Virus record (IMG/VR): IMGVR_UViG_3300031521_000262
Coordinates: 1 to 30,838 of that record
DNA: 30,838 nucleotides
Strand: one strand, 5' to 3'
From: a virus
The notes below the pieces were generated by a model. That model had not been told where the DNA came from. It saw nothing but the letters and a program-made list of their open reading frames with translations, and did no database searches. This document shows positions 9,841 to 24,898 of this stretch, in pieces. The first letter of the stretch is position 1. Each line of letters opens with the position of its first letter. The position numbers and the translations under genes were made by a program.

Positions 9841-12558
9841 ATGTATAACAGTACTCCTACAAAAAGTAACGCTGAAAAAGCTGTGAAACTAGCAGAGCTT
9901 AAAAACGGTACACCTGTTTGTAGAATTGAGTTTCCCTACAACCAAGAAGACCTTAATAGGGTACGAGGTTTAAGGGAACGAAAATACTATCCAGAAGGTA
10001 AATACTGGACATGTCCTGTAGATGTTCCTTCATTGGAACTTCTAGCAGAATGGGGATTTAAACTTGATTCTAATTTACAAGCTATCCTAGATCGCTCAAA
10101 AGTATCTATCACAGATGTCAAGGAAATTAAAATACCAGGATTAAAAGGGACGTTAAGACCGTTTCAAAATATTGGTGTTAGTTTTATTGATGCTAAGAAT
10201 GGTAGATGTTTAATTGCAGATGAGATGGGCTTGGGTAAAGCACAACCTTGGTACACCAAAGTACTAACACCTTCTGGATGGAAGCAGATAGGTAATCTTT
10301 CTTTAAAAGATCAAGTATTTGGATCTGATGGAATATCTCATAAGTTAAAAGGAATCTACAATAAAGGAAATAAGAAAGTGTATAAGGTTACATTTTCTGA
10401 TAAAACTTCTGTAGAATGTTGTGAAGACCATTTATGGACGATTTACTCTCCTAGAGACAAATGGATGGGATTTCCTAGTAAGACTTTTCCATTAAAAGAA
10501 ATTATGAAAATGCAATTAAAATCAGATAAGAAATCTAAGGCTAATTTAGTCTTTATACCTATGCTTTCTGATGCAATTGACTTTCCAGAAAGGAAATTAA
10601 TTATTCCTCCATACACAATGGGTGCTTTATTAGGTGACGGAGGTATTTCTAAAGGAGTTTGTTTTTCTAACACAGATTCTGATATTATTGAAAGAGTTGG
10701 AAACGAACTGCTTCCATTGGGGTACACATTGAAAAAAGACAAAGGTGAGAATTGTGATTTCCATGTAGTGCATACAAATCCAAAAGACAAGTCTAAAATT
10801 AATGAAATAAAAAACATTATCAGAAAGTATAGATTAAATGTTACTTCAGAATACAAGTATATTCCTGATGATTATAAATTTGGTTCTATAGAACAAAGAG
10901 CTGAACTATTAAGAGGACTTCTTGATACAGACGGTTATGCAAGTTTAAAATCTGGAGTTATTCAATTTACGTCTGTTTCGGAACAATTATGTGACGATGT
11001 TGTTTTTTTAGTTGAGTCTTTTGGAGGTATTGCAAGAAAGAAATCCTATCCTGGAATACAAGTTTGTCCAAATGGAGACAAGAAAATAGGAAAGATAGCT
11101 CATTCACTCACAATAATGATGCCGAAAGGAAATAATCCTTTCTTTTGCATAAGAAAAAGAACCTCTTGTAAAGAGAAAGTAAAATACAGTCCTGCAAGAG
11201 CTATCACAAAAATAGAGTATGTAAAAACAGATTTATGTTTCTGCATTTCTGTAGACACAAAGGATCATTTATATGTCACAGAACATTGTATATTGACACA
11301 TAATACTGTCCAGGCTTTAGCTTACCTACAACTGCATAAAGAACTTCGGACAGCAATCATTGTCGTTCCTGCTTCTTTAAAACTTAACTGGCTAAGAGAA
11401 ACATTTAATTGGATACCTAATTCTCAGGCAGAAGTATTAACAGGAAGAACTCCATACAAAACGACTGGAAAGATTCTTATTCTTAATTATGACATTTTAG
11501 AAGCTTGGGTACCTTATTTGATTAAGATTAAGCCAAAGATCCTAATAATGGATGAGGTACATTGTATTAAAAACGGTGCTGCTAAAAGAACAAAGGCTGC
11601 TAAGAAATTAGGTAAAGTTGTAGAACACATTATTGGTTTATCTGGTACTCCTGTACTTAACAGACCGATTGAAATATACAATGCTGTATCAATGATAGAT
11701 CCTACTGTATTAGGTTCTTATTTTGTATTTACGAAGCGTTATTGTGATGCTAAGAAATCTATATGGGGTACAAATGTACAAGGTGCTTCTAATGTTGAAG
11801 AGTTGCACAGGAAACTGACAAGTACTGTCATGTTAAGAAGACTGAAGGTAAATGTTGCAAAAGATTTGCCAGACAAACAGACAGCTTTTGTACCTATTGA
11901 GTTAGACAATTGGGCTGAGTATGTTTATGCAGAACGAAACTTTATTAAATGGGTAAGTGAAACGAAAGGTACTGCCGCAGCAATTAGAGCTTCCAATGCA
12001 GAAACATTAGGTCAGATTAATGCTTTAAAACAATTGGCTGTAAAAGGTAAAATGGCTAATGTTATATCTTGGATAGAAGAGTTTATTGACTCAGGTGAGA
12101 AGCTTGTATTGTTTTGTACTCATACAGCGACAATTGATGCTATAATGACAGCATTTCCAAAGATATCTGTTAGGTATGATGGAGGTGTTAATCAATCAAA
12201 CAGAGACAAAGCAGTAACATCATTTCAGACAGACGTTAGAATTAAATTATTTGTTGGGATGTTAGATGCTGCTGGAAATCCTGCAGGAGTAGGTTTAACA
12301 TTAACCGCAGCTTGGTCCACAGCAACAATTGAATATCAATACACCCCAGGTGTACATGATCAAGCAGACGACAGAATACACAGGATTGGACAAAAGAATG
12401 CCTGTACCAATTATAAATTGATTGCAGCAGGTACAATTGAAGAAAAGATTGCAGCTTTACTAGATAAGAAACGTCAAATTGTAGACGGTATATTAGATGG
12501 TAAACGTACACCTGCAGAATCCTTACTAATGGAACTTATTAAATCTTACCAAAAATAA
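9841..12558 (+). CDS. SNF2-family (SMARCAL1/HARP-like) DNA helicase with intein
   Basis: A 905-aa precursor: 550 aa of helicase after removal of the 355-aa intein (residues 134-488). The N-terminal part (about 17-60, with FPYNQEDLNRVRGLRERKYY and WTCPV) resembles a HARP-like domain. The helicase core shows motif I split as DEMGLGK/T across the intein, motif II DEVH (MDEVHCIKNG), motif III LSGTPV, and motif VI DDRIHRIGQKN. These motifs define the SNF2 branch of superfamily 2. Such enzymes use ATP to translocate on duplex DNA, and SMARCAL1-like members anneal or remodel forks. It is placed just ahead of the replication genes. Activity requires intein excision, since the P-loop is otherwise interrupted. 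Confidence 0.92.
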   Translation: MYNSTPTKSNAEKAVKLAELKNGTPVCRIEFPYNQEDLNRVRGLRERKYYPEGKYWTCPVDVPSLELLAEWGFKLDSNLQAILDRSKVSITDVKEIKIPGLKGTLRPFQNIGVSFIDAKNGRCLIADEMGLGKAQPWYTKVLTPSGWKQIGNLSLKDQVFGSDGISHKLKGIYNKGNKKVYKVTFSDKTSVECCEDHLWTIYSPRDKWMGFPSKTFPLKEIMKMQLKSDKKSKANLVFIPMLSDAIDFPERKLIIPPYTMGALLGDGGISKGVCFSNTDSDIIERVGNELLPLGYTLKKDKGENCDFHVVHTNPKDKSKINEIKNIIRKYRLNVTSEYKYIPDDYKFGSIEQRAELLRGLLDTDGYASLKSGVIQFTSVSEQLCDDVVFLVESFGGIARKKSYPGIQVCPNGDKKIGKIAHSLTIMMPKGNNPFFCIRKRTSCKEKVKYSPARAITKIEYVKTDLCFCISVDTKDHLYVTEHCILTHNTVQALAYLQLHKELRTAIIVVPASLKLNWLRETFNWIPNSQAEVLTGRTPYKTTGKILILNYDILEAWVPYLIKIKPKILIMDEVHCIKNGAAKRTKAAKKLGKVVEHIIGLSGTPVLNRPIEIYNAVSMIDPTVLGSYFVFTKRYCDAKKSIWGTNVQGASNVEELHRKLTSTVMLRRLKVNVAKDLPDKQTAFVPIELDNWAEYVYAERNFIKWVSETKGTAAAIRASNAETLGQINALKQLAVKGKMANVISWIEEFIDSGEKLVLFCTHTATIDAIMTAFPKISVRYDGGVNQSNRDKAVTSFQTDVRIKLFVGMLDAAGNPAGVGLTLTAAWSTATIEYQYTPGVHDQADDRIHRIGQKNACTNYKLIAAGTIEEKIAALLDKKRQIVDGILDGKRTPAESLLMELIKSYQK
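10240..11304 (+). mobile_element. Full-length intein with LAGLIDADG endonuclease, Walker A insertion
   Basis: A 355-residue in-frame insertion between Lys133 and Thr489. The N-terminal block is AQPWYTKVLTPSGWK, which starts with Ala instead of Cys/Ser; block B is near CEDHLW. The two dodecapeptide blocks LLGDGGI (about 130-136) and LLDTDGYAS (about 227-235) mark a DOD homing endonuclease. The C-terminal block DHLYVTEHCILTHN ends in His-Asn and is followed by Thr+1. All splicing features except the usual first nucleophile are present, so splicing presumably follows the Ala1 (class 2-like) route. Insertion in a P-loop is a favoured site for inteins. Confidence 0.92.
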
Positions 12559-13440: not shown

Positions 13441-14139
13441 ATGAAACATTTTAAATTAACAACAGAATCAAAAGTAAATTTTTTAAGAACTACTTTGTTT
13501 AGAATAGAACTTATTGTTGATTGCAAATGGGGTTCTGTAGGAGATAAAGGAGGGTGGGTAGAAAAAGAAAATAACCTATCTGGCGATGCCTGGGTATCTG
13601 GCAATGCCAGGGTATCTGGCGATGCCAAGGTATATGGCGATGCCTGGGTATCTGGCGATGCCGAGGTATCTGGCGATGCCAAGGTATATGGCGATGCCAA
13701 GGTATCTGGCAATGCCTGGGTATCTGGCAATGCCTGGGTATCTGGCGATGCCAAGGTATATGGCGATGCCAAGGTATCTGGCAATGCCTGGGTATCTGAC
13801 AATGCCAAGGTATATGGCGATGCCTGGGTATCTGGCGATGCCGAGGTATCTGGCAATGCCTGGGTATCTGGCGATGCCAAGGTATATGGCGATGCCGTTT
13901 GTACTAAAAGATGCTTTACCTTAAATTTTGTCTACTTTTTAACATTAACAGACAATCACATACAATACGGCTGTATTAGGAAGACAATACAAGAATGGAT
14001 TGACTGGCTTGCTGACATTAATGCAGTAATAAAAACTCCTAGAGGCACTCCTAAATTCAAGTTAATTGAAATGTCTTTAAATTTAGCTATTGAACAGTGG
14101 AAACAATTAAATCAAAATAACAATGAGTACTTTTGTTGA
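13441..14139 (+). CDS. Hexapeptide-repeat (beta-helix) protein
   Basis: A 232-aa protein. Residues 1-45 form an N-terminal cap ending in GDKGGWVEKENN. Residues 46-153 are 18 perfect-length hexads of the type V(S/Y)G(D/N)A(W/K/E/R), predicted to fold as a solenoid beta-helix with a Val and an Ala stacked per turn. Residues 154-232 form a C-terminal part that starts hydrophobic and ends helical (IQEWIDWLADINAVIK). Repeats of this kind occur in many phage and Bacteroidetes proteins of unknown function, often in adhesion or scaffold roles. GC content of the repeat block is far above its surroundings. It overlaps the next gene by 17 bases. Confidence 0.75.
   Translation: MKHFKLTTESKVNFLRTTLFRIELIVDCKWGSVGDKGGWVEKENNLSGDAWVSGNARVSGDAKVYGDAWVSGDAEVSGDAKVYGDAKVSGNAWVSGNAWVSGDAKVYGDAKVSGNAWVSDNAKVYGDAWVSGDAEVSGNAWVSGDAKVYGDAVCTKRCFTLNFVYFLTLTDNHIQYGCIRKTIQEWIDWLADINAVIKTPRGTPKFKLIEMSLNLAIEQWKQLNQNNNEYFC
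13576..13899 (+). repeat. 18-unit tandem repeat of 18 bp
   Basis: Eighteen contiguous 18-bp units (type GTATCTGGCGATGCCTGG), each encoding one hexad. Tyr-containing units fall at positions 4, 7, 11, 14 and 18, an alternating 3/4 spacing that points to duplication of a larger 7-unit (126-bp) block. The array contains no stop codon in at least two other frames. Confidence 0.9.
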
Positions 14140-19497: not shown

Positions 19498-21054
19498 ATG
19501 ATAGAAAGAACCATACTAATCGGCCTAATCACATCTACGGACTTTAACCTACGGATTAAGGACAAGTGGGATGTCTCTTTATTTGAATCTTCTACAGCTA
19601 AACGAATAGCTACCTGGGTAAAAGAGTATTTCTTAAAGTACAACAAAGCACCAGGCAAAGACATTGAAGCAATCTTTTATGAGAAAGCTAAGAATGGTTT
19701 ACCTAAGGATTTAGCTGAGGAAATAGAAGAGGAAATTTTACCTAGCTTGTCTGCACAATATGAAGATGAATCTATCAACTTAGAGTACTTGGTTGAGAAA
19801 GCAACAGATTACTTCAACGAAAGAAGTTTGTTGAGACATTCTGAGGAAATAAAAGCATTGCTTGATGCAGGTAGATTGAGAGAAGCAGAAGCAAAGGCAA
19901 GTTCTTTCAAACCTATGGCTAGGGATATGGGTAGTTGGATAGACTTGTCTGACGAGGATATAATGAAAGAGAAAGTCAAGTTAGCATTTACCACAGCTAA
20001 TGAAATACTCATACACTTTCCAAGGGAGTTAGGTAAGTTTTGGAATGAACAATTTGTACGTGGAGGATTTATTGCATTTTTAGGTCCTGAGAAACGTGGT
20101 AAGACATTTATGCTATTAGACATAGCAATTAGAGCCTGCAAGCAAGGACGCAAAGTAGCATTCTTCCAGGCAGGAGATATGTCTGAAAGTGAACAATTGA
20201 AAAGAATCTGTATTTATTTATCTAAAAAATCAAACAAAGAACAATATTGTGACGCACATTTGCAACCTGTCAGAGATTGTATCAACAATCAACTTGATCT
20301 TTGTAAACGTCCTGAAAGAGAATGTGACTCACCTAACTTGTTTAATGGAATAAAGAATACCAAATTAGAAAAAATTACTCAAGAAAATATTAGGAAAGTA
20401 GTTACATTTGAACATATCCAAGAAGCAATTAAGAATAATCCTGATCATGTACAATGTACAAACTGTAAGAAATTTAGAGGTACGATATGGGCAAAGAAAA
20501 TACCTTCTACAGAACCTTTAAACGAGCATGAAGCTTTTAGTTGGATAGATAAATTCTTTATCAAGAACAAAAAGAACTTTAAACTGTCTACTCATGCAAA
20601 CAGTACTCTTTCCGTTCAAGAATCAGAAGCTATCATGGATATATGGGAAAAGCAAGACGGGTTTATTCCTGATGTTGTTATTTATGATTATCCAGACATT
20701 ATGATAGAGCCTAATGTAACTGAGGAACGTCCAAAACAGAATGCAATATGGAAACGAATGCGAGGTGTGTCACAGAAAAGACATGCTTTAGTGATTGCAG
20801 TTACACAGGCAGATTCTGATAGTTATGAACGAGATATGTTGACAATGAAGAACTTTTCTGAGGATAAAAGAAAGTTCGGACATGTGACAGCATTTTATGG
20901 TTTAAATCAAGATCATACAGGAAGAGAAAAGAAATTAGGAATTATGAGATTGAATGAAATTGTAGTTAGGGAAGGAGGGTTTGAGACTTCCAATCAAATT
21001 TATATACTGCAAAATCTAAAAAGAGGGCGACCATTTTTAACATCATACCTATAA
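19498..21054 (+). CDS. DnaB/RecA-type replicative helicase
   Basis: A 518-aa ATPase. The N-terminal helical region (1-130) resembles the DnaB N-terminal collar. The RecA core has Walker A GPEKRGKT (about 196-203), followed by KVAFFQAGDMSE, which is typical of DnaB-like proteins, a Walker B-type VVIYDYPDIM near 395, and LVIAVTQADS. Between Walker A and B is an insertion of about 100 residues with Cys251, 261, 269, 276, 320 and 323, which may bind zinc. Probable fork helicase working with the primase at 16846 and the clamp at 29812. Confidence 0.8.
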   Translation: MIERTILIGLITSTDFNLRIKDKWDVSLFESSTAKRIATWVKEYFLKYNKAPGKDIEAIFYEKAKNGLPKDLAEEIEEEILPSLSAQYEDESINLEYLVEKATDYFNERSLLRHSEEIKALLDAGRLREAEAKASSFKPMARDMGSWIDLSDEDIMKEKVKLAFTTANEILIHFPRELGKFWNEQFVRGGFIAFLGPEKRGKTFMLLDIAIRACKQGRKVAFFQAGDMSESEQLKRICIYLSKKSNKEQYCDAHLQPVRDCINNQLDLCKRPERECDSPNLFNGIKNTKLEKITQENIRKVVTFEHIQEAIKNNPDHVQCTNCKKFRGTIWAKKIPSTEPLNEHEAFSWIDKFFIKNKKNFKLSTHANSTLSVQESEAIMDIWEKQDGFIPDVVIYDYPDIMIEPNVTEERPKQNAIWKRMRGVSQKRHALVIAVTQADSDSYERDMLTMKNFSEDKRKFGHVTAFYGLNQDHTGREKKLGIMRLNEIVVREGGFETSNQIYILQNLKRGRPFLTSYL

Positions 21055-21064
21055 ATTTATAATT

Positions 21065-21241
21065 ATGAAAGAAACACAGGAAATTCTACTGAAAATGGGA
21101 TTCTCAAATCCTAATTCAAATGTCTGGAGATCAGAGTAGTTTGGAGTACTTTTATTATTAGATACAGCTACTCCAGAAGATCTTGCAAAATTTATTTATT
21201 ACAGAGGAGTTAGAAATATTAAAGGAGTAGTTGCTCCTTGA
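21065..21241 (+). pseudogene. Small ORF interrupted by an in-frame amber codon
   Basis: The ATTATG-context start opens a frame of 24 codons ending in VWRSE, then TAG (21137-21139). The same frame then continues for 33 codons (FGVLLLLDTATPEDLAKFIYYRGVRN...) to TGA. Both halves read as one 58-residue protein with a hydrophobic strand and a helix. TAG ends several other genes in the window, so a general code change is unlikely. This is either a nonsense mutation (for example TGG to TAG), a base-call error, or programmed read-through. Confidence 0.5.
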
Positions 21242-21331: not shown

Positions 21332-21448
21332 GAGACTATGGTGGAATTGGCAGACACCAACCTAAAACAGTTCGGACATTGAGGTTTAAGAATAGCCGTG
21401 CTGATATATGGTTCCTCAGTTCCAGGTTCGAGTCCTGGTAGTCTCACA
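21332..21448 (+). tRNA. Oversized leucine-type tRNA-like RNA, anticodon unclear
   Basis: The acceptor stem GAGACTA (21332-21338)/TAGTCTC (21439-21445) is perfect. The D-arm GTGGAATTGGCAGACAC is of leucine type, and the T-arm is CCAGG-TTCGAGT-CCTGG. At the canonical anticodon-stem position AACCT pairs with AGGTT, but the loop is 18 bases (AAAACAGTTCGGACATTG) instead of 7. An alternative helix TGAGG/CCTCA defines a very long variable arm. Total length is about 115 bases against 85-90 for a normal tRNA-Leu. No anticodon can be assigned with confidence. Confidence 0.6.
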
Positions 21449-21459
21449 AATTTTTAATC

Positions 21460-21589
21460 GGGGGGTATCAAAATGGGTAATGTGCCTGCGGTAACGCGGC
21501 CGCAACGTAGATGGTTAACAGACGGGATTTGCTTAAGTCTGCTCGGACACGGAACATCACTGAGGAGTTTGATTCTCCTCCCCTCCACA
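21460..21589 (+). tRNA. Second oversized tRNA-like RNA
   Basis: The T-arm GAGGAG-TTTGATT-CTCCTC (21563-21580) has a 6-bp stem. The acceptor 3' strand CCCTCC (21581-21586) is followed by ACA and pairs with GGGGGG (21460-21465) with one G-U pair; this gives a 6+6 bp coaxial helix. CAGAC/GTCTG can form a 5-bp stem with a 13-base loop, where an anticodon arm might sit. CCTGCG-GTAA-CGCGG forms a hairpin near 21485-21500. The overall length of about 128 bases is far above a normal tRNA, and no anticodon is assigned. It may be a non-decoding tRNA-like RNA or part of the tmRNA precursor. Confidence 0.4.
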
Positions 21590-21611
21590 AGTTCATTCTG
21601 ATTACGGAGTC

Positions 21612-21650
21612 TGTTGTTTGGACGGCGGTTCGATTCCGCCCTGCTCCACA
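21612..21650 (+). ncRNA. tmRNA acceptor piece
   Basis: The P2 strand TGTTGTT (21612-21618) is followed by the conserved GGAC, T-stem GGCGG (21624-21628), T-loop TTCGATT (21629-21635), CCGCC (21636-21640), the acceptor strand CTGCTCC (21641-21647) and ACA. No upstream sequence within 100 bases can supply the 5' acceptor strand; the matching strand lies downstream at 21752. The acceptor piece may extend further 5' than 21612. Confidence 0.75.
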
Positions 21651-21751
21651 GTTCCGTCAAGAGAAGTTAACCCGTCACTTTAGTACGGTTTACTCTGAAG
21701 GCAACAGGTGTAGTTCGTCATCTAAACGTGGCACATCAGAGTATTTATAAC

Positions 21752-21900
21752 GGGGCAGCCTGGTTTTGACAGCAATAAGGTGAGTAATTAGTGATTTAAT
21801 TCACAAAGAATGTTCTGATTACAATCGGCAACGATTATCAAATGAAAGCCGCAGCCTAAGAGGCAGTAGTTTTCCGGTGTGGGTGTCAAAAGCCCACACC
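21752..21900 (+). ncRNA. tmRNA coding piece
   Basis: The 5' acceptor strand GGGGCAG and the D-loop-like CTGGTTTTGACA are followed by a foldable stretch (GTGA/TCAC near 21790-21804, candidate first pseudoknot). Then comes the tag frame at 21827-21859, a GCC-TAAGA-GGC hairpin over the stop, and an 8-bp closing hairpin GGTGTGGG (21876-21883)/CCCACACC (21893-21900), which probably marks the 3' end. Confidence 0.75.
21827..21859 (+). other. tmRNA proteolysis-tag reading frame
   Basis: GGC AAC GAT TAT CAA ATG AAA GCC GCA GCC TAA encodes Gly-Asn-Asp-Tyr-Gln-Met-Lys-Ala-Ala-Ala-stop. A Gly resume codon, the acidic/Asn start and the Ala-Ala end fit known tags. The usual Leu-Ala-Ala end is replaced by Ala-Ala-Ala after Lys. 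Confidence 0.7.
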
Positions 21901-21935: not shown

Positions 21936-22295
21936 ATGTTCAAAATTACAAAAGAGTTTACCTGTTGTTCTAGTCATGTATTAAACGGACTACCAAAGGA
22001 ACACCCTTGTGCCAGATTACACGGCCATAACTACGTTATTAGAGTAGAGTTAATCTCAGACAATCTAAATGATGTAGGCTTTGTATTTGATTACAGAGGA
22101 CTTGACTACATCAAACAATGGATTGATGAAACAATGGATCACAAACATCTTAATGATGTGTTTGACTTTAATCCTACTGCTGAGAATATGTCAATGCACA
22201 TCTACCAGATTTTTAAATTGAGTTTACCACAGTTAAATGCAATTGAGATTTCTGAGACACCGAAAACGAATGCTCGTTACTCTTTAGAAAAGTAA
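21936..22295 (+). CDS. queD: 6-carboxy-tetrahydropterin synthase (QueD)
   Basis: Second step of 7-deazaguanine synthesis: converts dihydroneopterin triphosphate from FolE into 6-carboxy-tetrahydropterin. The 119-aa protein has the family's usual length and T-fold layout. The zinc ligands are His14 (SSHVLNGLP), His29 and His31 (LHGHNY), and Cys25 (KEHPCARLHG) is the catalytic cysteine. PTAENMSMHIY and ISETPKTNARY near the C-terminus are also diagnostic, the latter giving the substrate-binding Glu. First gene of the modification locus, three bases before queE. Confidence 0.92.
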   Translation: MFKITKEFTCCSSHVLNGLPKEHPCARLHGHNYVIRVELISDNLNDVGFVFDYRGLDYIKQWIDETMDHKHLNDVFDFNPTAENMSMHIYQIFKLSLPQLNAIEISETPKTNARYSLEK

Positions 22296-22298
22296 ACA

Positions 22299-23075
22299 AT
22301 GGAAGCTACTCAAATAATCAAAGCGTTTCCAACCTTTACTAAGATTATTGAAAGTGGAAGGTTACCTAAAGCACACATACTCCATGTGTCGGAATTCTTT
22401 TGCGACTCTATTCAAGGAGAAGGTGTTAACGCAGGAGTTCCTGCAGCCTTTTTAAGATTGAAAGGATGTGTATTGGATTGTACTTGGTGTGATACTACGG
22501 AAGTATGGAGGCAAGGAAATCCTTATACGTTTGCAGAGTTGTTTTGTCTAATGGATGTCTGCGGTTTACCAAACAAATTATTGCACGGGCAACATCTAGT
22601 ACTTACAGGAGGAAGCCCGTTATGTCAGCAGATGTCTGTGCTGAATTTTATTAATGAGTTTATCAAAAGATACTCATTCTGTCCTTATATTGAGATAGAG
22701 AATGAATGTACTATCAAGCCGATGGATGAATTGGTGCATTACATCTCATGTTGGAACAATTCTCCTAAACTTTCCAATTCTGGCAATGATGTAGATGTAT
22801 GTTACAAACCTGCAATCTTAGAAACTTTAGCTGCTTTAAATAACTCTTGGTTTAAATTTGTTATTACCAGTCAAAAAGAATGGGATGAGATAGATTGTTT
22901 ATATCTCAGTACAGGTATTATTCAAAGAGAACAAATCATTTTGATGCCTCAAGGCTCTACAAAAGAGGACATTGAAGCAAACAGAGAAATGGTTATTGAG
23001 ATGGCTATAAAACATGAGGTAAGATATTGTACCAGAGAACACATTATTGTATGGGGGAAGAAAATCGGGATTTAA
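22299..23075 (+). CDS. queE: 7-carboxy-7-deazaguanine synthase (QueE)
   Basis: Radical SAM enzyme that contracts the pterin ring of the QueD product to give 7-carboxy-7-deazaguanine (CDG). The phrase SEFFCDSIQGEGVNAGVPAAF precisely matches the family N-terminus apart from small changes. The [4Fe-4S] cluster ligands are Cys57, Cys61 and Cys64 in RLKGCVLDCTWCDT. A GGE-type SAM motif is present as LTGGSPLCQQ, with Ser in place of the usual Glu. At 258 aa it is slightly longer than most QueE proteins. It directly follows queD. Confidence 0.9.
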   Translation: MEATQIIKAFPTFTKIIESGRLPKAHILHVSEFFCDSIQGEGVNAGVPAAFLRLKGCVLDCTWCDTTEVWRQGNPYTFAELFCLMDVCGLPNKLLHGQHLVLTGGSPLCQQMSVLNFINEFIKRYSFCPYIEIENECTIKPMDELVHYISCWNNSPKLSNSGNDVDVCYKPAILETLAALNNSWFKFVITSQKEWDEIDCLYLSTGIIQREQIILMPQGSTKEDIEANREMVIEMAIKHEVRYCTREHIIVWGKKIGI

Positions 23076-23143
23076 AAATGAACAAAAAGTTACAGCATAT
23101 TACGAAAGGGTTATTTACGGTTCATTTTTTACACATTAATTCT

Positions 23144-23377
23144 ATGGAAAAAGAAAAGTCAGAATTATTAAATAAAGTTTCCAGTCTTGTTAAAACTGCT
23201 AAAAATTTATTAACAGAAATAAAAGACGATGAAATACAATCCTTTGCCAATTTATCGGAAGAGGATCAGGCTACTATTGAGGGCCAAAAATATGCCCAAA
23301 CGGCTGCTCTACTTGAGGATATAATTTATTCTTTGGAAGATGTTGTAGAAAACATCCCTAAGGCAATAGAAGACTAA
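23144..23377 (+). CDS. Hypothetical acidic helical protein (77 aa)
   Basis: A 77-aa acidic helical protein (MEKEKSELLNKVSSLVKTAKNLLTEIKDDEIQSF..., LEDIIYSLEDVVENIPKAIED), probably a coiled coil. The ATG at 23144 is preferred because the segment between the queE stop and this point reads as AT-rich leader. A start at 23078, two bases after the queE stop, would give 99 aa and remains possible. Not recognised. It precedes the third Lys-rich paralogue. Confidence 0.5.
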   Translation: MEKEKSELLNKVSSLVKTAKNLLTEIKDDEIQSFANLSEEDQATIEGQKYAQTAALLEDIIYSLEDVVENIPKAIED

Positions 23378-23447
23378 TTTTTATCCTTATACTTAAGACT
23401 TGTTAATTAGTATTGAATTAATCATTAATCATTAAAAATTCGTTAAA

Positions 23448-24275
<828 letters not shown>

Positions 24276-24302
24276 TCCATCCAATTTTTATTTAAATCTA
24301 AG

Positions 24303-24337
24303 TAAGGGAAGTTCGTGACTGTCTTCCCTTATTTTTT
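24303..24337 (+). terminator. Rho-independent terminator
   Basis: TAAGGGAAG (24303-24311) pairs perfectly with CTTCCCTTA (24323-24331), followed by six T. It separates the 23448 gene from folE. Confidence 0.8.
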
Positions 24338-24349
24338 AAACTTTAAGAA

Positions 24350-24898
24350 ATGCAAAGAACTATCGTTCAGATAATTGCGGATCAATTGTCGTATATTGGT
24401 GAAGATCCAACTAGAGAAGGGCTGTTAGACACTCCAAATCGCATTGTTAAGTCCTGGGGTGAGTTATATTCTGGCTATGGAAAAGATCCTGCAGACTTGC
24501 TTACTGTGTTTGAAGTAGGTACTTACAATCAAATTGTTTTATTAAAAGATATTGAAATCTACAGTATGTGTGAACATCACATGCTTCCTTTTTACGGAGT
24601 TGCTCATGTAGCTTATATACCCGGGGAACATGTTATTGGGATCTCTAAACTTGCAAGACTTGTAGATATGTTTTCCCGTAGGATGCAAATCCAAGAACGT
24701 ATTGGAGAACAGGTAACAGACGCTCTAATGCAATATCTGCAACCTAAAGGTGCTGCTTGTATTATTGAAGCTTGTCATATGTGCATGAGAATGCGAGGAG
24801 TAGGTAAACAAGGTTCAACTATGGTTACTTCTTCGATGAAGGGAGAGTTTTTTACCAATGCTGCTGCTAAGGCAGAATTAATGCAAATGATAAAATGA
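24350..24898 (+). CDS. folE: GTP cyclohydrolase I (FolE)
   Basis: First step of the pathway: GTP to dihydroneopterin triphosphate, the substrate of QueD. The 182-aa protein covers the whole family length. Motifs: DPTREGLLDTPNR (residues about 18-30), YSMCEHHMLPFYGVAHVAYIP with zinc ligand Cys and His, VIGISKLARLVDMFSRR, and ACHMCMRMRGVGKQGSTMVTS with the second Cys ligand. Starts 12 bases after the terminator T-run. Its TGA overlaps the following ATG. Confidence 0.95.
   Translation: MQRTIVQIIADQLSYIGEDPTREGLLDTPNRIVKSWGELYSGYGKDPADLLTVFEVGTYNQIVLLKDIEIYSMCEHHMLPFYGVAHVAYIPGEHVIGISKLARLVDMFSRRMQIQERIGEQVTDALMQYLQPKGAACIIEACHMCMRMRGVGKQGSTMVTSSMKGEFFTNAAAKAELMQMIK

Follow-up and report, generated by a model that had tools for sequence, protein, structure and literature searches.

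Permuted tmRNA genes are on record from three main clades of bacteria as well as from mitochondria. Phages also carry such genes: Melnitz, whose two-piece tmRNA was described in PMC9004378, the pelagiphages of that study, and the cyanophages S-CAM1 and S-SSM7 all have, like the locus reported here, a permuted tmRNA gene whose 5' piece is short. Among the phage tmRNAs of the public phage database, 53 two-piece genes have been counted, with few exceptions from marine or aquatic samples (PMC9004378). The novelty in phages that the original prediction had implied is therefore forestalled by Melnitz, the cyanophages and these 53 genes. On the other hand, the main text of PMC9004378 names no Bacteroidota phage, and none of the literature searched was found to describe permuted tmRNA genes of Bacteroidota phages or of crAss-like ones; the 79 phage sequences of PMC11915505 may include some. 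The model of the Rfam family RF04321 (tmRNA_permuted; Nawrocki, Petrov and Williams 2025, PMC11915505) rests on alpha, beta and cyano sequences. The gene described here shares with this family the gene order, the tRNA-like domain and the tag frame, but it differs in having a glycine resume codon and a probable host phylum outside these clades. The form of the gene is known, while its lineage and setting are new.

The window, i.e. the whole stretch of 30,838 nt of viral DNA that was analysed (positions 1 to 30,838 of the IMG/VR record IMGVR_UViG_3300031521_000262), was scanned in full with Rfam models, and RF04321 matched at 21600-21859 with 66.6 bits (E 6e-11), against a gathering cut-off of 47 bits. 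ARAGORN also called a permuted tmRNA, with the tag GNDYQMKAAA followed by the stop, whereas the standard one-piece model RF00023, relative to which the order of the halves is reversed, stayed below its cut-off in the window. A permuted tmRNA gene in a phage, as had been predicted, is thus borne out by RF04321, including the covariance-model check of the permuted form, by ARAGORN and by the covariation described below; the placing of the two halves, with the 3' half ahead of the 5' half, likewise agrees with the sequence. The gene lies between that of a DnaB-like helicase (19498-21054) and that of QueD (21936-22295).

All parts of the gene lie on the plus strand. The 3' (acceptor) piece at 21598..21648, delimited by sequence, RF04321 and covariation but with its own 5' end undefined, comprises a distal P2 strand CTGATTAC (21598-21605), the covarying P2 strand GTTGTT (21613-21618), GGAC (21620-21623), the stem and loop of the T arm (21624-21640), the covarying acceptor strand CTGCTCC (21641-21647) and the discriminator A (21648), after which CCA is not encoded. 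Between the two halves lies an intervening segment of 103 nt (21649..21751), which would be expected to go during processing; the corresponding length is 39-266 nt among the Bacteroidota-type relatives, in contrast to 5 nt in the cyanophage genes. The tRNA-like part and spacer of the 5' piece (21752..21826), again delimited by sequence, RF04321 and covariation, begin with the acceptor strand GGGGCAG, which contributes to the G3-U70 pair (21752-21758), and continue through TGGTTTTGAC (21761-21770), the covarying P2 strand AGCAAT (21771-21776) and a distal P2 strand GTAATTAG (21784-21791).

Pairing between the halves was examined in 19 distinct permuted sequences, aligned with the halves joined and the intervening segment left out; this set includes L005, a candidate member of the Bacteroidota type with the implied tag ANDNFALAA that was later set aside as another type. 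The 7-bp acceptor stem GGGGCAG/CTGCTCC held as originally drawn: 100% of cells are paired over the 19 sequences, compensatory changes occur at 3/7 pairs, with the variants CAG/CTG, CCG/CGG, CTG/CAG, TTG/CAA, CAT/ATG and GTG/CAC, and the G3-U70 pair is invariant (19/19). The covariation that the original prediction had anticipated in both helices was therefore found for the acceptor stem, and for P2 in another register than the one proposed. As AGCAAT/GTTGTT, P2 is paired in 84% of cells with compensatory changes, and its covariation score of 0.559, compared with 0.235 in shuffles, was reached by 0/500 shuffles; the combined score of acceptor and P2 (0.424 versus 0.139) was also above all 500 shuffles. 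The register GACAGCA/TGTTGTT, paired in 48% of cells, does no better than shuffles, and P2 as first drawn is therefore wrong. Furthermore, an 8-bp helix of GTAATTAG (21784-21791) with CTGATTAC (21598-21605) extends the contact between the pieces; L011, the nearest relative, preserves this helix, with A-U in place of its single G-U. A second copy of CTGATTAC lies directly ahead of the resume codon (21815-21822); since this copy is absent from L011, the contact between the two pieces is favoured.

The tag frame (21827..21859), supported by ARAGORN and by the relatives, reads GGC AAC GAT TAT CAA ATG AAA GCC GCA GCC TAA, i.e. GNDYQMKAAA, with the resume codon GGC at 21827 and the stop at 21857-21859. 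The nearest relatives of the window tmRNA, L011/L019, which match its 5' piece at 89% over 114 nt, have the tag GNDYQMKMAA, one residue different, and the relatives in general keep tag frames with stops, with alanine as the last residue in nearly every case. For another relative, L018, the ARAGORN tag (GAPGFTDRGYVF) was judged wrong, and the context fits the frame GKVRQLIPAIQHRIAA. Past the stop codon, a stem-loop GGTGTGGG...CCCACACC is predicted by folding at 21876..21900, and may be taken as the 3' end of the transcript; it has no T run of the kind that the scan requires. A strong hairpin after the stop was found in 12/12 folded loci outside the crAss-like phages (the window included), and less so in three crAss-like ones. 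The 5' piece thus seems to end ~45 nt past the stop codon, so that the later pseudoknots known from one-piece tmRNA would hardly fit.

Two tRNA-like elements lie upstream of the permuted gene on the plus strand. The one at 21332..21446 is a tRNA-Leu-like gene (Rfam tRNA, 35.4 bits) with an enlarged anticodon loop, the ARAGORN fit of which as tRNA-Leu(aag) needs a 21-nt insert at 33/34; that it serves as a processing landmark is speculative. The other (21460..21587), recognised by sequence and fold and of unsure identity, has an enlarged middle, a GGGGGG/CCCTCC pairing that includes a G3-U70-type wobble, and a T arm AGGAG-TTTGATT-CTCCT; Rfam gave no match for it up to E 1. By hand, enlarged anticodon loops of 18, 13 and 19 nt were counted in 21332-21446, 21460-21587 and an element of L011 (~2041-1949, minus strand), respectively. 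Possibly, these genes are decoys, intron-bearing tRNAs or processing landmarks. Also nearby is a small ORF (21066-21241) that would encode one protein (MKETQEILL...WRSE-stop-FGVLLLLD...GVVAP) if not for one in-frame TAG (21138-21140). Reassignment of TAG to an amino acid was considered and rejected, as several main genes end in TAG directly ahead of the next gene, and the ORF is therefore probably a broken gene or a case of local readthrough. Downstream, QueD, QueE and GTP cyclohydrolase genes (21936-24898) suggest a 7-deazaguanine pathway, which may serve to modify DNA. Elsewhere in the window, a strongly repetitive coding stretch (13441-14139) specifies a protein that carries tandem GDAWVSGNAKVYGDA-type repeats.

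The gene is not a lone case. The group to which it belongs comprises 27 distinct sequences, which come from viral contigs, from crAss-like phages, from the phages MA9V-3 and Panino, and from a prophage of Zeaxanthinibacter. Scanning the viral contigs with a pattern found L006, L011, L014, L018, L020, L021, L023 and L024, among others, and further patterns added L070-L072 and L119-L130. A BLAST search, with the concatenated first pattern-found set as query, revealed permuted tmRNAs in the crAss-like phages cr50_1, cr60_1, cr125_1, cr114_1 and cr10_1 (Crassvirales, Suoliviridae), in Chryseobacterium phage MA9V-3 and in Maribacter phage Panino, the records of which label the gene only as SsrA. 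That five crAss-like phages, two Bacteroidota phage isolates and one Flavobacteriaceae prophage carry this kind of gene removes any notion of an isolated occurrence. The genes of these seven phages are permuted, have a glycine resume codon and belong to the same acceptor/P2 covariation set, although their tags and intervening lengths differ from those of the window. In cr114_1 (L064 1543-1614), an intact tRNA-His lies within the intervening segment; PMC11915505 called a tRNA in this position unique when it met one in a nominally archaeal case. RAGATH RNAs (RF03146, RF03098, RF03048) were observed at most ~1.5 kb from the permuted tmRNA in crAss-like phages (L061-L064, L066).

At the locus level, the window and L011/L019 have in common the order helicase, tRNA-like element, permuted tmRNA, QueD, QueE. 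Among viral contigs, the adjacent DnaB-like helicase led to no close relatives, and the SNF2-type helicase led to one, L002; whole-locus DNA similarity gave no match in phage records. In L002, the helicase (60%) and QueD (49%) flank small ORFs and the tmRNA is absent, so the permuted tmRNA is dispensable, an accessory module. The SNF2-type helicase gene of the window (9841-12558) is itself interrupted by a segment (residues ~130-490) that is intein-like and contains a LAGLIDADG domain, and L002 matches this helicase on both flanks of the segment.

The window virus very probably infects Bacteroidota, as judged from its TerL and primase matches, the rarity of Shine-Dalgarno-like motifs and the group membership of its tmRNA: the best matches of TerL are Cellulophaga phages (36%), the weak matches of the primase include a Flavobacterium phage, and Shine-Dalgarno-like motifs precede 3/29 genes, not above background. 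When the permuted-order pattern was run over genome contigs (one scan), the single match was in Zeaxanthinibacter sp. PT1 (Flavobacteriaceae), where rIIA/rIIB, primase, DnaB-like helicase, DNA polymerase and integrase genes surround the permuted gene, which thus lies in a prophage. The chromosome of this strain has its own one-piece tmRNA with the tag GEDNYALAA (RF00023, 160.3 bits). No genome but Zeaxanthinibacter exceeded the RF04321 cut-off among 395 sampled genomes of the phylum and 397 of the family of Zeaxanthinibacter, in overlapping samples with few candidates scored per genome and strict filters. The standard tmRNA model was over its cut-off in 55/60 genomes of the class. Sub-threshold RF04321 matches in Bacteroidota were considered as host permuted genes and dismissed, since ARAGORN finds a one-piece gene in 18 of the 19 that were scanned with it; in the remaining one, L054, it finds only tRNAs. 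The expectation that Bacteroidota tmRNAs are one-piece as a rule is upheld by these 18/19 calls, the 395-genome scan and the 55/60 genomes.

Part of the tRNA-like motif was set in advance by the search patterns, so the argument on lineage rests on features that they left free; unbiased in this respect are only the members found by BLAST, the identity of the resume codon and the Rfam cut-offs. The resume codon is GGN (glycine) in 17/19 of the group, with GGC in the window, and GGC in 16/17 one-piece tmRNAs of the class Bacteroidia, while it is GCN (alanine) in 19/19 other permuted phage genes. By Rfam cut-offs, the window gene is outside the three named permuted lineages: its best score with an old-style model, 43.9 bits for beta_tmRNA (RF01850), is below the cut-off of 84 bits, and neither alpha_tmRNA (RF01849) nor cyano_tmRNA (RF01851) has an over-cut-off match in the window, where sub-cut-off scores are masked by clan filtering. 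None of the 17 scanned Bacteroidota-type sources reached the alpha, beta or cyano cut-offs, whereas both cyanophage controls, which have an alanine resume codon, pass RF01851. The Bacteroidia one-piece tmRNA, e.g. that of Zeaxanthinibacter sp. PT1, shares with the window the GGC resume codon, the TTTTGACAG motif and the GTTTGGAC 3' half, but it is unpermuted, has the later pseudoknot domain, and spans ~77 nt from GAC to the tag, compared with ~40-56 nt in the group (56 in the window).

It is most likely, to judge from these sequence features, that the gene arose when a one-piece tmRNA of the Bacteroidia type was permuted, in an event separate from the alpha, cyano and beta lineages. Alternatively, a phage may have acquired a gene of one of the older permuted lineages (of alpha, beta or cyano type) from a distant host, as the original prediction had allowed, and this gene drifted later toward the Bacteroidota type. 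The short spacers ahead of the tag are alike, beta_tmRNA is the best old-style match, and in a tree computed from 63 alignment columns for 67 rows, six group members, including L011, fall weakly with the alpha/cyano set. In the same tree, however, the 23 alpha/cyano-type sequences form one supported clade and most of the group is intermixed with Bacteroidia one-piece genes; moreover, 43.9 bits is far from 84, glycine stands in place of alanine, and the 3' half is on average nearer to Bacteroidia one-piece genes in 21/27 (0.78 versus 0.70 for the window). A distant-host origin is thus disfavoured by the resume codon, the sequence of the tRNA-like domain and the failed cut-offs, and we consider it unlikely; as most members side with Bacteroidia genes and yet six join the alpha/cyano set, independent permutation is graded as likely rather than certain. 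Since related phages are permuted and the typed host genes are one-piece, the rearrangement looks like a separate, phage-kept invention. Somewhat less firmly, but with the balance in its favour, we suggest that it represents a fourth independently permuted lineage, derived from the one-piece gene of Bacteroidia and confined to phages and prophages whose hosts have one-piece genes, which would provide infected cells with a second tagging RNA, owned by the phage.

As a whole, the locus is likely a working two-piece tmRNA gene of a Bacteroidota phage, processed by the host, tagging with host SmpB, independently permuted and spread among such phages. One precursor, from upstream of 21598 to ~21900, would fold across the intervening segment, with its distant ends paired as acceptor stem and P2; tRNA-processing enzymes of the host would excise the segment, freeing both ends, and CCA would be added to the 3' piece. 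The G3-U70 wobble is the mark of alanine-charged RNAs, and AlaRS would charge the two-piece RNA at this pair. Together with host SmpB, the charged RNA would then enter stalled ribosomes, add GNDYQMKAAA and release them, presumably to the benefit of the phage. SmpB was not found in the window; the record is fragmentary, and SmpB is provided by the host. Another reading is that the RNA acts as a decoy that binds host SmpB, AlaRS or ribosomes and blocks host rescue without tagging, in the way that the DS6A phage tmRNA, which has no tag frame, inhibits host tmRNA as reported in PMC11915505. The very short 5' piece, with scant room for the usual later pseudoknots, would suit such a role, but the relatives keep tag frames with stops, nearly all alanine-ended, and G3-U70 is invariant, which makes a decoy improbable. 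Still less credence, close to none, can be given to a remnant of integration, in which unrelated 3' and 5' fragments of host tmRNA adjoin by chance: tmRNA genes are frequent integration sites (PMC11915505), but the same order recurs in phage isolates and crAss-like phages, and the covariation of the halves over 19 sequences already refutes this reading.

If the working-gene interpretation and its separate origin are true, a further permuted lineage would exist in phages and not in their hosts, which would show that permutation can happen more than once and that selection on mobile elements can maintain it, and one-piece and two-piece forms could be compared within one host cell. The crAss-like gut phages would then have an RNA of their own for ribosome rescue, with private tags, as could be tested in cultured Bacteroidota phages.
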